In this document: in pieces, positions 37,016 to 40,569 of the stretch | How the letters are laid out: every line of letters starts with the position of its first letter | Position numbering within the stretch: the first letter of the stretch is position 1 | NCBI GenBank assembly: GCA_025359505.1 | Contig: JANYHH010000067.1 | Span: 18,508 to 82,507, forward strand | Source: Deinococcales bacterium | Lineage (GTDB): Bacteria > Deinococcota > Deinococci > Deinococcales > JAAFIG01 | Length of the DNA: 64,000 nucleotides | Reading direction: 5' to 3' | Notes under the pieces: model-generated | What the model was told of the DNA's origin: nothing | Seen by the model: only the letters and a program-made list of their open reading frames with translations | Database searches by the model: none | Program-made: the position numbers and the translations under genes

Positions 37016-37121
37016 GGCTGCGAGTCTACGCTTTGGGATCACCTCGAGAAATCACGAGTTTGAGCTTATCTCAAAACTTAGACTCGAGTCTAAGTAAATC
37101 GGCTTTGCTCGAGAGGTGCGT

Positions 37122-37148
37122 AAAAAAACCAGCGGCTCGAGCCGCTGG
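37122..37148 (-). terminator. Intrinsic terminator of the 53-aa peptide gene
   Basis: A 20-nt perfect palindrome (37129-37148), CCAGCGGCTCGAGCCGCTGG, is followed on the minus strand by seven T residues (A-run 37122-37128). It ends a minus-strand transcript coming from the peptide gene 23 bp upstream. CTCGAG sits at the centre of the hairpin. Confidence 0.85.
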
Positions 37149-37170
37149 TATGATATACATGTGAGGTAGG

Positions 37171-37332
37171 TTAGCTGCCTCCACCGAACGCAGTCGCACC
37201 GCTTGCCATTACCGTTGTGCTCGAGTGAGCGTTGGTAGCACCGCCGCCACCAAAAGCAGTTGCTCCTGACGCAAGAGCTGTGAAGCCGAGGACGAGTGAA
37301 GAAGCGACGATGAGCTTAATAAGGATTTTCAT
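37171..37332 (-). CDS. 53-aa secreted peptide with two identical decapeptide repeats
   Basis: This short gene encodes a signal-like N-terminus (MKILIKLIVASSLVLGF, then TALA) and a mature part that begins SGATAFGGGG. The decapeptide ASGATAFGGG is present at residues 21-30 and again at 43-52, just before the final Ser. The two copies (nt 37243-37272 and 37177-37206) use different synonymous codons at 7 of 10 positions, a sign of selection on the peptide. It has a dedicated terminator 23 bp downstream. Its ATG is 32 bp from the divergent regulator start. A signalling peptide is my inference; it could also be a secreted glycine-rich structural peptide. Confidence 0.75.
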   Translation of the reverse strand: MKILIKLIVASSLVLGFTALASGATAFGGGGATNAHSSTTVMASGATAFGGGS

Positions 37333-37364
37333 AATGTTGGACGAAGAGTACGAGATCGGACAAT

Positions 37365-39335
37365 ATGTCTGACTTAATTCCTCTTAGCTCGCATTTGGAG
37401 TTGTTGTATCAGAACTCCAGATATGCAGATGGTGTGAACTTCTACGAGGCTTCAGGTGTTACAACGCCCCGAGAAGATCGTTTCGGTGGACTCTGCCTGT
37501 GGTCGTTAGGAAAATACGAAGAGGCAAAAATCCCACTTTACAAATCAATACAGCGTGGTTATGCAGATGCAACTGTTGACCTGATAGGAATTCACTTACA
37601 ACTTAACGAGTTCACTGAGGCTCAAGAATGGATTGAGCTAAGTTGGAAACTTGAGTTATCACCGCTCAACAGAATCGAAATATTGATCTCTGAAAGCGAT
37701 CTTTATGTGAAGCTCGGCAAAAGTAGGCTTGCGGTTAAGGCATTAAAGAAAGCTTGGATACAAGCAAATATTACTACCGACCCCGCAAACTCGATTTCTC
37801 GCGTAGCGCAGTCTCTGGCGGTTGCGTTACAAAGCCTTGGCGAGGATTCAAAGGCAATCGAATATTTAAATAAAGCAATCTTGAAATCAAACGAATTCTG
37901 GAAAACAATTCTCCGAATTACCTTGGCTAATTCACTCATGTCTACTGGTGACTTGGTTAAAGCGCAGTTAAATCTCCAAAGCACACAAAAAGCTAGTGAA
38001 TCAAATGGGGTTATCTCTGCATATCACCTGATTGCAGATGGGCAATTTTCAGTTATTTGCAAGCAGTTTGATCAATCAGTTGCTCGTTCTGCAACAGCGA
38101 TACAAGCATCAGAGAAAATAGATAACAGGCAGTTTCAGCTCGAGTCTCGAGCATGGGCGTCAGCCACGCACATTGCCACTGGCAACCTCGATCAAGCTCG
38201 AGCCGTACTGATGCCGCTCGCTCACCTCGAGCTTGCCCCAGCGGAGGAGGCGTTGCTGAAACTCCGTCAAGGCGTGCTGCATCTGGCAAGTAGCGACATG
38301 ATCGCTGCTCGAGCTGCTTTGGAACACGCAGTTTCACACTTTTCCACGTTGGAGCACAAGCGCGAATTAGGCTGGTCAATGCTGCGCCTCGCGGAGTTCC
38401 ATCTGGTGACTGGCGATCCAACGCTCGCCAATCAAACGCTGGAGCGTGTTTCTGATGTCGCTAATGAAGTTGGTGGCACGGCGTTCTTGGTGTCGGAGTT
38501 GAACCTGATGGGTTTGGCAACTGTCACGAAGCTCTCAGAGGTCGCCTCTGTCTACGCCATGCACGCGCTCGCCCCGACCCTCGAGCCGGGACGACTGGTG
38601 TCTATCCCGCTGGATTCCAGACCGCTGGTGCGGCGTTTGCGCGTGATTACGCTGGGCAAACCCATGCTGCTGGCGGGCGACCGCAACGTCACGCCGCGCC
38701 TCAATAAAGCCATGGAACTGATCTCTTACCTCGTTTTGCACCCGCAAAGCAGTCTGGAACGGATTTTAGACGCGGTTTTCCCGGACAGTGATGCTAAAGC
38801 TGCCGCAAATTACTTTCATCAGATTCGTCACAAGCTCACCAGAGACGTGCCGGAATTGCGTGTCGCGCAAGATAAGCAAACCAAACTCTACGCAATTGAT
38901 ACTGGAACTATTCCTTTAGAGAGCGATTACGAGGATGTCGTTAAACTCTTAAATCACGCCACGCAAAATGAACTCCACCAAGCGCTCGAGATTTATCGCG
39001 GTGCATTTATGCCGCATATCGAGAGCGAATGGGCTGAGGAGGTCAGAAATAACGTGGAATGGTTACTGGTTCGCTCTGGATTGCGCGTCGTGCAGGATTT
39101 GTACGACCGTGGAAACTTCGAGGATTGCCGCAAACTCACTGAGAAACTGCGGAAAGTCGCGCCGCTCGATGCCGGTCTGGGCGAGCTGTTGGTGCGTGCC
39201 ACGAACGAAATCGACGGTTTGCTGGCTGCTAAGCGCACGCTGACCGATGTCGAGAAGTATTTCAATGCCGAAGTTGGCGAGTTGCCACCGGGACTAGAGA
39301 GTTTGAAACGCGATTACAAGCTCAACATCAACTGA
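37365..39335 (+). CDS. TPR regulator with C-terminal winged helix and BTAD
   Basis: A 656-aa protein. Residues 1-410 are TPR-like helical repeats, about 425-515 a SARP-type winged helix (LRVITLGKPMLLAGDRNVTP, HQIRHKLTRDVPELRV) and 530-600 a BTAD region (HQALEIYRGAFMPHIESEW). This order is the reverse of a standard SARP. The gene is a mosaic: up to about 38140 (residue 258) it is AT-rich with no CTCGAG; after that GC-rich with dense CTCGAG. It is divergent from the peptide gene with a 32-bp gap, which makes it a candidate peptide receptor (inference). Confidence 0.75.
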   Translation: MSDLIPLSSHLELLYQNSRYADGVNFYEASGVTTPREDRFGGLCLWSLGKYEEAKIPLYKSIQRGYADATVDLIGIHLQLNEFTEAQEWIELSWKLELSPLNRIEILISESDLYVKLGKSRLAVKALKKAWIQANITTDPANSISRVAQSLAVALQSLGEDSKAIEYLNKAILKSNEFWKTILRITLANSLMSTGDLVKAQLNLQSTQKASESNGVISAYHLIADGQFSVICKQFDQSVARSATAIQASEKIDNRQFQLESRAWASATHIATGNLDQARAVLMPLAHLELAPAEEALLKLRQGVLHLASSDMIAARAALEHAVSHFSTLEHKRELGWSMLRLAEFHLVTGDPTLANQTLERVSDVANEVGGTAFLVSELNLMGLATVTKLSEVASVYAMHALAPTLEPGRLVSIPLDSRPLVRRLRVITLGKPMLLAGDRNVTPRLNKAMELISYLVLHPQSSLERILDAVFPDSDAKAAANYFHQIRHKLTRDVPELRVAQDKQTKLYAIDTGTIPLESDYEDVVKLLNHATQNELHQALEIYRGAFMPHIESEWAEEVRNNVEWLLVRSGLRVVQDLYDRGNFEDCRKLTEKLRKVAPLDAGLGELLVRATNEIDGLLAAKRTLTDVEKYFNAEVGELPPGLESLKRDYKLNIN

Positions 39336-39525: not shown

Positions 39526-40569
39526 TTGTTCAATTTTCGACATCTGCAACCCGAGTTGCCTCTTGGATTGGATGACGCGGTGAGCGCCGATTCAGCCGTT
39601 GGACAACTGACTGTCGGGATTGTCACCCCGAACGTCTGGGGCTTTGACATTGAGCGGGCCGCGATGCGCTTACTCGGGGTGCGGAGCGCCACGACCTTAG
39701 AGGGTGAGGACGTGGTGGGGATGTGCTCAGATGGTTTTTTTGATTGCCTGATCGTTGAGCTGCAAAACCCGTTGACGATCATGTTCTGCAATGACATCAA
39801 AAGCGATCCGTACACCAACTTGCCGATGATCGTCTTGGTGGACGAGGTGACGCAATCGCTCGCGCCAGAGGCCTACGGGCTGGGCGTGGACAACGTAATG
39901 ACCTTACCGGTCAATCCAGAAGCGCTTGCTATGCGGGCGCTGCGCTTGTGCGAACGTCACCGCGAGCAGCGTGCTCTGGAGAACCCGATGGGTGTTTTGG
40001 CGGCAGTCTCGAGAACCGTGGAGAAGCACGATCCGTACACGGCCGGTCACATCGAGCGTCTGCGTGCGATCAGCGGCCACGTGGCTCGCAGCGTCGGCTT
40101 GCAACGCGCCGAGGTCGAAGCGGTGCGGGTGGCTGGACTCTTGCACGATATTGGCAAGATTGCCGTGCCCGGCGAAATCTTGCGAAAGCCCGGTGCGCTT
40201 GATGCTCACGAATGGACGTTGATTAAACAACACCCTGTTCACGGTGCGGACATCGTGGCCACATTGCGCCAAGGTGACGTGATCGCGCCAATGGTGCGTT
40301 CGCATCACGAGCACTGGAACGGCAAGGGTTATCCCGATGGCTTGGGCAGTACCGATATTCCAATCGGCGGGCGCATCATCGCGGTTGTGGACGCCTTCGA
40401 CGCGATGACCACCGACCGACCGTACAGAAGCGCCCTGACGCTCGAGGAAGCCCGCCGTAGGCTGTCTGAGGGTGCGGGAACGCAGTTCGACCGTAACATC
40501 GTCACGGCATTGCTTGATCTCAGCCCAAGGGTATTAGAGAAACGCTGGGAAGACGCGTTGTCACTCTGA
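39526..40569 (+). CDS. HD-GYP domain phosphodiesterase with receiver-like N-terminus
   Basis: A 347-aa protein. Residues about 25-140 resemble a receiver domain without a clear phospho-Asp; then the HD-GYP domain with LLHDIGKIAVPGEIL and HHEHWNGKGYPDGLG, including the diagnostic GYP. Such enzymes degrade cyclic di-GMP. TTG 39526 is the first in-frame start, with GGGGGA only 3 nt upstream; a later start is possible. Its relation to the upstream regulator is unknown, but both are on the same strand 190 bp apart. Confidence 0.85.
   Translation: MFNFRHLQPELPLGLDDAVSADSAVGQLTVGIVTPNVWGFDIERAAMRLLGVRSATTLEGEDVVGMCSDGFFDCLIVELQNPLTIMFCNDIKSDPYTNLPMIVLVDEVTQSLAPEAYGLGVDNVMTLPVNPEALAMRALRLCERHREQRALENPMGVLAAVSRTVEKHDPYTAGHIERLRAISGHVARSVGLQRAEVEAVRVAGLLHDIGKIAVPGEILRKPGALDAHEWTLIKQHPVHGADIVATLRQGDVIAPMVRSHHEHWNGKGYPDGLGSTDIPIGGRIIAVVDAFDAMTTDRPYRSALTLEEARRRLSEGAGTQFDRNIVTALLDLSPRVLEKRWEDALSL

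Follow-up and report, generated by a model that had tools for sequence, protein, structure and literature searches.

Within a 64,000-nucleotide stretch of a Deinococcales genome (assembly GCA_025359505.1, contig JANYHH010000067.1; hereafter the window), a gene for a 53-amino-acid peptide, MKILIKLIVASSLVLGFTALASGATAFGGGGATNAHSSTTVMASGATAFGGGS, lies divergently next to a gene for a large regulator. We consider it probable that this gene pair is a one-component peptide pheromone (quorum-sensing) system, with a sensor of tetratricopeptide repeats (TPR) and an output of the Streptomyces antibiotic regulatory protein (SARP) type. Our best reading is that peptide pheromone signalling with an output of this type is new for Deinococcota. 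Sequence comparison, profiles and predicted folds support four elements of this reading: the pairing itself, the conserved double repeat in the peptide, the TPR-plus-SARP architecture, and SARP-type repeats before the peptide genes of several relatives. The original prediction, drawn from the letters of the window, was of a peptide and its receptor, and at the level of sequence and models that interpretation is supported.

The peptide gene starts with ATG and encodes the decapeptide ASGATAFGGG twice (Table). As first described, 7 of 10 codons are not the same in the two copies, and every difference is synonymous, including TCA versus AGC for Ser. The peptide is of the exported type according to a hand-made signal-peptide rule, not SignalP. 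When a very large protein set was searched with the window peptide, requiring shared 5-residue words, four more homologous peptides of 54-55 amino acids were found, 71-90% identical. Conservation in relatives had been anticipated, and both copies are letter-identical in 5/5 versions; the spacer and the signal sequence vary. All four homologues are of the same two-repeat type; this does not resemble the pattern of a widespread structural protein, one of the outcomes that had been named as refuting the idea. The longest contig is 4,702 bases for both the peptide homologue P0022 and the receptor homologue P0002, which suggests that the two share one contig. The gene also has the palindromic terminator claimed for it, a perfect hairpin and then a T run; the stretch 37110-37175 folds at -19.2 kcal/mol (z -4.47), and 0/200 shuffles were equally stable.

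Where the conservation falls bears on whether the product could be an unprocessed, membrane-held microprotein that touches the regulator from inside, much like an anti-activator. Such a protein would need just the hydrophobic segment and the tight linkage, which are all that is strictly visible in the sequence. However, what is conserved is not the helix but the Gly-rich tail behind a canonical cleavage motif, and a doubled tail is unexpected for an anchor. We therefore regard the microprotein as very unlikely.

The regulator gene begins 32 bp from the peptide gene on the opposite strand, as reported, and the expectation that this pairing would recur in relatives was borne out. No convincing homologue of the window peptide was found elsewhere in four genomes of its family (best other E 0.06), so peptides were identified from where they lie and how they are built rather than from sequence similarity. 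These genomes hold 10 receptors of the window type, the window's included, and upstream of each is a small divergent ORF (open reading frame) of 33-53 amino acids that has the pattern of a signal peptide followed by a short tail. Across 111 genomes of the phylum there were 41 receptor matches, 17 of them full-length (E < 1e-140). Receptor records that carry a lineage name belong to Meiothermus granaticius NBRC 107808, an uncultured Meiothermus, and metagenome-assembled genomes (MAGs) of Thermaceae, Trueperaceae and Deinococcales. The lineage-labelled receptor records came from a search with a three-row alignment, and the phylum of the remaining genomes was taken from the lineages of those records; the window receptor alone, as query of the genome contigs, found no relative.

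The signal-peptide rule asks for an ATG start, 25-90 amino acids, a positive N-region, a hydrophobic core and a cleavage motif, on the opposite strand and at most 300 bp upstream. A small ORF of this kind faces 16 of the 17 full-length receptors, the exception being L023, compared with 9/147 non-receptor genes (Fisher p 5e-15), where the controls come solely from the window's family (14 stretches with 155 genes, 8 of them receptors) and have crude start codons. All 20 listed modules pass as well, but these were picked for having a peptide, and 16/17 is the fair count. The rule was drafted after the first examples were known, and a set of Deinococcus plasmids obtained later serves as an independent test. 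The M. granaticius receptor matched 12 such plasmids by tblastn; with two weak partial matches omitted, 6 of the 10 receptors examined passed the rule, against 0/43 other uncut annotated genes (p 9e-6). In D. gobiensis a candidate peptide can be seen by eye and fails the rule. On D. ficus pDFI1, a 67-amino-acid ORF upstream of the receptor (L075:2486-2689, WP_027464026.1) has YPVGSARLTG twice and no signal sequence.

A second, more distant receptor family (L041, L044, L055) has the ORF in 3/3 loci, and it is also present beside the partial receptor L042. A shorter Trueperaceae receptor type, of TPR and winged helix, aligns only to model position 515-548 of 645, and thus has no full BTAD; 9 of its 11 loci (L028, L029, L031-L034, L037-L039) carry a conserved, divergently encoded 33-amino-acid peptide 304-471 bp away, beginning MKN(T/S)GKRIF and ending in SQR, SSR or ATR. 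Its predicted mature heptapeptides include GATYSQR, GVHFSQR and GAFASQR. Within 600 bp, the rule found no divergent signal-peptide ORF at L053, L054 and L056, which are of other make-up, or at L006 in the window's own genome. L007, in the same genome, runs into the edge of the examined stretch and was not judged, and L030, L043, L045 and L046 are pieces at contig ends, left unjudged. At L013:998-1116 a broken second peptide copy lies behind the first, with its signal start and its tail (...AHADPYSTGLGSGGASARP) in different frames. Judging from gene arrangement, we conclude that the peptide-regulator pairing is real and conserved across Deinococcota, the phylum that the scan covered; we do not claim that it is restricted to it.

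These counts also bear on the suggestion that the small gene is a chance ORF beside an ordinary regulator. Short ORFs are common, and some control genes do pass the rule. Nevertheless, the identity of both repeats in every version already refutes it, and the terminator at the window gene, the Shine-Dalgarno sequences at most of the others and the recurrence of the pairing all point the same way; we give it practically no credence.

Table. Features of the peptide-receptor locus, in window coordinates.
Feature	Position	Strand	Basis
Propeptide gene, predicted secreted pheromone precursor	37171..37332	-	ORF; four homologues with identical repeats; recurring position beside homologous receptors
Predicted Sec signal sequence MKILIKLIVASSLVLGFTALA, predicted cut after Ala21	37270..37332	-	Fits the fixed hand-made signal-peptide rule
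ASGATAFGGG copy 1, residues 21-30, directly at the predicted cleavage site	37243..37272	-	Sequence
ASGATAFGGG copy 2, residues 43-52, C-terminus	37177..37206	-	Sequence
Intrinsic terminator behind the peptide gene: hairpin at 37128-37149, then a T run	37122..37149	-	Folding against shuffles
Possible -10 element TACTCT, 12 nt 5' of the peptide ATG	37345..37350	-	TANNNT pattern common to modules lacking a Shine-Dalgarno match
Receptor/regulator gene, 656 amino acids, N-terminal TPR superhelix and C-terminal SARP-type domain	37365..39335	+	Pfam TPR; AlphaFold2 model, mean pLDDT (predicted local distance difference test) 88.2
TPR half, residues 1-400, proposed peptide-binding sensor	37365..38564	+	Predicted fold
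Winged helix and BTAD, residues 419-656, SARP-type activator domain	38619..39332	+	Predicted fold
HD-GYP-type HD-domain protein, possible output (presumed cyclic di-GMP turnover)	39526..40569	+	PF13487, E 8.8e-40

The window peptide holds two motif copies parted by a spacer in one propeptide, and the idea that these are multiple copies of one signal gains parallels at three other loci. The same plan, with a copy at the predicted cleavage site, a spacer and a C-terminal copy, recurs with unrelated letters on two Deinococcus aetherius plasmids: the pDAETH-1 precursor reads ...AQA/GGAHDFGQRAPAQTERTVQPGGGAHDFGQ, where the slash marks the predicted cut and the copies differ synonymously at 6/8 codons by eye, and the pDAETH-2 precursor reads ...ASA/GSKDFGQKAPISADGSKDFGDR. 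At the third locus (G007, L041:3365-3832), two tandem, near-identical precursors of 75 amino acids, each with LPSNDGWITIE three times, are divergent from a TPR regulator. Predicted mature parts at several loci are 7-10 residues long, for example APSGAGTF, NPGTGGFGG, GPGTGLGGGL and GATYSQR. By this comparison the repeated unit would be the pheromone. On pDAETH-2, a second annotated ORF of 44 amino acids (L082:2477-2611) follows the peptide gene with a 4-base overlap and has the same DFGDR end as the peptide.

If the mature peptide is read by the TPR half, the two should change together, as had been proposed. Among 23 modules (a set without QL22, G080 and G025), similarity of mature peptides tracks that of TPR halves with the DNA-binding half held constant (partial r 0.34, p 0.001), although this is a liberal test (partial Mantel) that relies on cleavage sites assigned by eye, which counts against our interpretation. 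With the TPR half held constant, mature peptides show no clear relation to the DNA-binding half (0.14, p 0.13). Signal parts, in contrast, track the DNA-binding half (0.33, p 0.001) but show no such link to the TPR half (-0.17, p 0.94). The mature-peptide result persists for 16 non-redundant receptors, with 0.37 (p 0.0135) against the TPR half and 0.01 against the DNA-binding half.

This result bears on the strongest competing explanation, that the peptide is a small secreted effector (antimicrobial, surface or matrix) activated by an adjacent SARP-type regulator whose TPR half senses something else. Secreted Gly-rich peptides can be structural, the promoter repeats described below imply no more than that the regulator acts on the peptide gene, and HD-GYP and GGDEF-EAL neighbours would fit surface behaviour. 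However, mature parts of 7-10 residues are short for a structural or pore-forming peptide, they co-vary with the TPR half, and doubled and tripled short units recur with unrelated motifs. We thus think an effector unlikely, and continue with the pheromone reading.

The regulator has the predicted make-up of a sensor joined to an activator. Pfam matched TPR repeats in the window protein, and the TPR half is its least conserved part among 18 homologues. The predicted fold of this half resembles domain III of MalT as well as Rap, NprR and AimR; Foldseek alone returned mostly eukaryotic TPR proteins with MalT at rank 36, and a VIA re-alignment of the fold matches placed MalT first and RRNPP receptors high. 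In the predicted fold, an OmpR-type winged helix is followed by a BTAD, and the C-terminal 238 residues match SARP domains such as that of AfsR. Pfam gave no BTAD match for the window protein; BTAD (PF03704) was matched in 5/10 aligned relatives (E <= 0.1). All receptors in the 10-row family alignment, and most in a wider one, end in Asn (L005, L008-L015, L021-L027).

According to PMC10936776, the direct repeats of SARP promoters have a spacing of 11 or 22 bp, and 8 bp lie between the final one and the -10 element. When 30 offsets were compared over the 150 bp before 17 peptide genes, self-matching peaked at 11 (6.53 of 9), with 22 next (6.18); shuffles gave 5.42 +- 0.22 at offset 11, and 0/300 reached the observed value. 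When a TANNNT was required 7-9 bp after the repeat, offset 11 averaged 5.09 across 22 modules, other offsets from 8 to 25 gave at most 3.45, and shuffles gave 2.47 +- 0.34 (0/500 reached the observed value), so the group as a whole has the SARP-type pattern. From these 22 modules M. granaticius (beside G033), G080 (beside G078), QL22 (beside D7000) and G025 were left out as redundant or partial. Well-formed examples are the promoters of M. granaticius, ACCCAATACGC ACCCAATACGC CCCCCTTT TAGGGT, and of Deinococcus sp. D7000, CCTAAACGGGA CCAAACCGG GGGGGGCC TAGCCT. Of the SARP-type output first proposed, then, the fold of the C-terminus and the repeats at several relatives' promoters stand, whereas the window has neither a repeat at its own promoter nor a Pfam BTAD. 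A Shine-Dalgarno match precedes 15/20 listed peptide genes, and none was found upstream of the ATG of the window gene. In 7/7 modules of the 22 that lack one, the window's included, a TANNNT ends 5-12 nt before the ATG, and we suggest from this spacing that their transcripts are leaderless or nearly so; a TANNNT lies within 14 nt of the ATG in one of the 15 other modules.

Several further observations weigh against our reading. TPR superhelices bind many things, and in the fold comparison human APC/C subunits reach scores against the TPR half as high as those of Rap. The 11-bp repeat scores at least 7/9 in only 6/22 modules, and the window promoter does not have it: its best score is 5/9 at offset 11 and 3/9 with the -10 spacing, and no pair reaches 7/9 at offsets 10, 11, 12 or 22. 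By the rule, no peptide lies within 600 bp of L035 and L036, of the shorter type, of L040 and L052, which are related to that type, or of L023, and none was found for the plasmid receptors L080 and L083. Finally, the 14 matches in the genome to the oligopeptide-binding family PF00496 belong to a common kind of protein, a control search being positive in 11/14 genomes.

With these points counted, we lean towards a broader proposal taken as one joint claim: that peptide quorum sensing in Deinococcota forms a class of its own, in which a Rap-like TPR sensor is joined to a SARP activator, each receptor acts through 11-bp repeats to switch on the pheromone gene divergent from it, the signals are 7-10 residues long and mostly Gly-rich, some precursors hold two or three copies, and the output often runs through cyclic di-GMP enzymes. 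At the window locus, the peptide would be exported via Sec and cut after Ala21, and each precursor would release two copies of a peptide like SGATAFGGG. The short mature peptide may re-enter cells by oligopeptide uptake, for which the PF00496 matches are candidates, and would bind the TPR half of the neighbouring activator. The activator would then switch on the peptide promoter, forming a positive loop.

The neighbouring genes offer some clues to the output. Downstream of the receptor, 4/4 loci of the clade that includes the window's receptor have an HD_5 gene of HD-GYP type. A GGDEF-EAL gene comes after the peptide gene in both M. granaticius and L048, and in L061 and L062 the receptor is followed by histidine kinases. 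It is plausible that the output runs through such second-messenger genes, HD-GYP at the window locus and GGDEF-EAL in Meiothermus, or through the kinases, the neighbourhoods being hints and not proof. The peptide could in principle be the precursor of a modified natural product, with enzymes encoded elsewhere and the SARP as pathway regulator. SARPs are known to regulate secondary metabolism, and NosP responds to nosiheptide and an intermediate (PMC10972967, in the portion available). However, there was no modification enzyme among the ten neighbour proteins scanned, and the peptide has a Sec-type signal in place of the leader of a ribosomally synthesized and post-translationally modified peptide; we judge this highly improbable. 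Across the window (1-64000) CTCGAG is present 438 times, where dinucleotide shuffles predict 25.5, and it looks frequent by eye in the family's other loci too. We take it to be a HIP1-like over-represented palindrome.

The nearest relatives in mode of action are the RRNPPA systems (Rap-Phr, NprR-NprX, AimR-AimP), known from Bacillota, as is peptide quorum sensing by cytosolic TPR receptors in general. The likeness lies in the TPR superhelix, which is not specific, and in the adjacent propeptide gene with a Sec signal by our rule. DNA-binding RRNPPA members have an N-terminal helix-turn-helix (HTH) before the TPRs, and Rap has none, whereas here, in Deinococcota, the DNA-binding region is C-terminal and consists of a SARP-type winged helix and BTAD. 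An N-terminal HTH was looked for: TPR helices begin at residue 10 of the AlphaFold2 model, no HTH family is among the Pfam matches of the window protein (E <= 1), and HTH_PafC matches weakly in a single relative of 10 (E 0.026). Because none was found, we suggest that the system works like RRNPPA but do not file it as a member. The receptors, of 613-658 amino acids, also fall outside the 250-500 window of a strict search for such systems (PMC10075063, as partly accessible), and no phage record carries the receptor.

Other known proteins share some features. The SARP activators AfsR, ActII-ORF4 and DnrI, and EmbR, have the reverse domain order, TPRs coming first and SARP last here; in AfsR the SARP domain is N-terminal, whereas here it occupies residues 419-656 of 656. 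The window protein has no NOD/ATPase domain in a Pfam scan, and its apparent target is the divergent peptide gene. MalT is a TPR-containing activator with an ATPase and a LuxR-type HTH that senses maltotriose; neither domain was matched by Pfam in the window protein. NosP is a SARP whose DNA binding is altered by products of a peptide pathway, but in the part of PMC10972967 available neither a TPR sensor nor an exported pheromone gene is named for it. The closest precedent for the precursor is found in Phr3T and Phr105, which have a signal sequence, a pheromone copy, a spacer and a second, C-terminal copy; processing of such precursors, from Rap systems of Bacillus subtilis phages, gives several mature pheromones that bind receptors (PMC11343458, accessible portion). 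Their sequences are unrelated to ours by eye, and in the window peptide, unlike theirs, the first copy is directly at the predicted signal-peptidase site.

We found no description of this peptide-regulator pairing in the open-access literature, among the matches listed (subscription papers and preprints were outside this scope), and no co-mention of SARP and RRNPP as whole words there. Two large surveys of peptide quorum sensing with TPR receptors covered Firmicutes, and one of them viruses as well (PMC10075063), and a survey of thermophiles including Meiothermus reported no complete peptide-based two-component system (PMC6022435), each according to the parts accessible. Predictions are at hand for Meiothermus granaticius NBRC 107808, whose receptor and peptide lie on NZ_QWLB01000073.1, and for Deinococcus aetherius ST0316, whose pDAETH-1 peptide is WP_264778045.1. 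Candidate peptides, among them APSGAGTF and GGAHDFGQ respectively, are given to the residue, and in some cases operators to the base. If our reading is true, the same sensing principle would have been joined to another activator, giving a SARP output in Thermaceae, Trueperaceae and Deinococcus, and also on plasmids.
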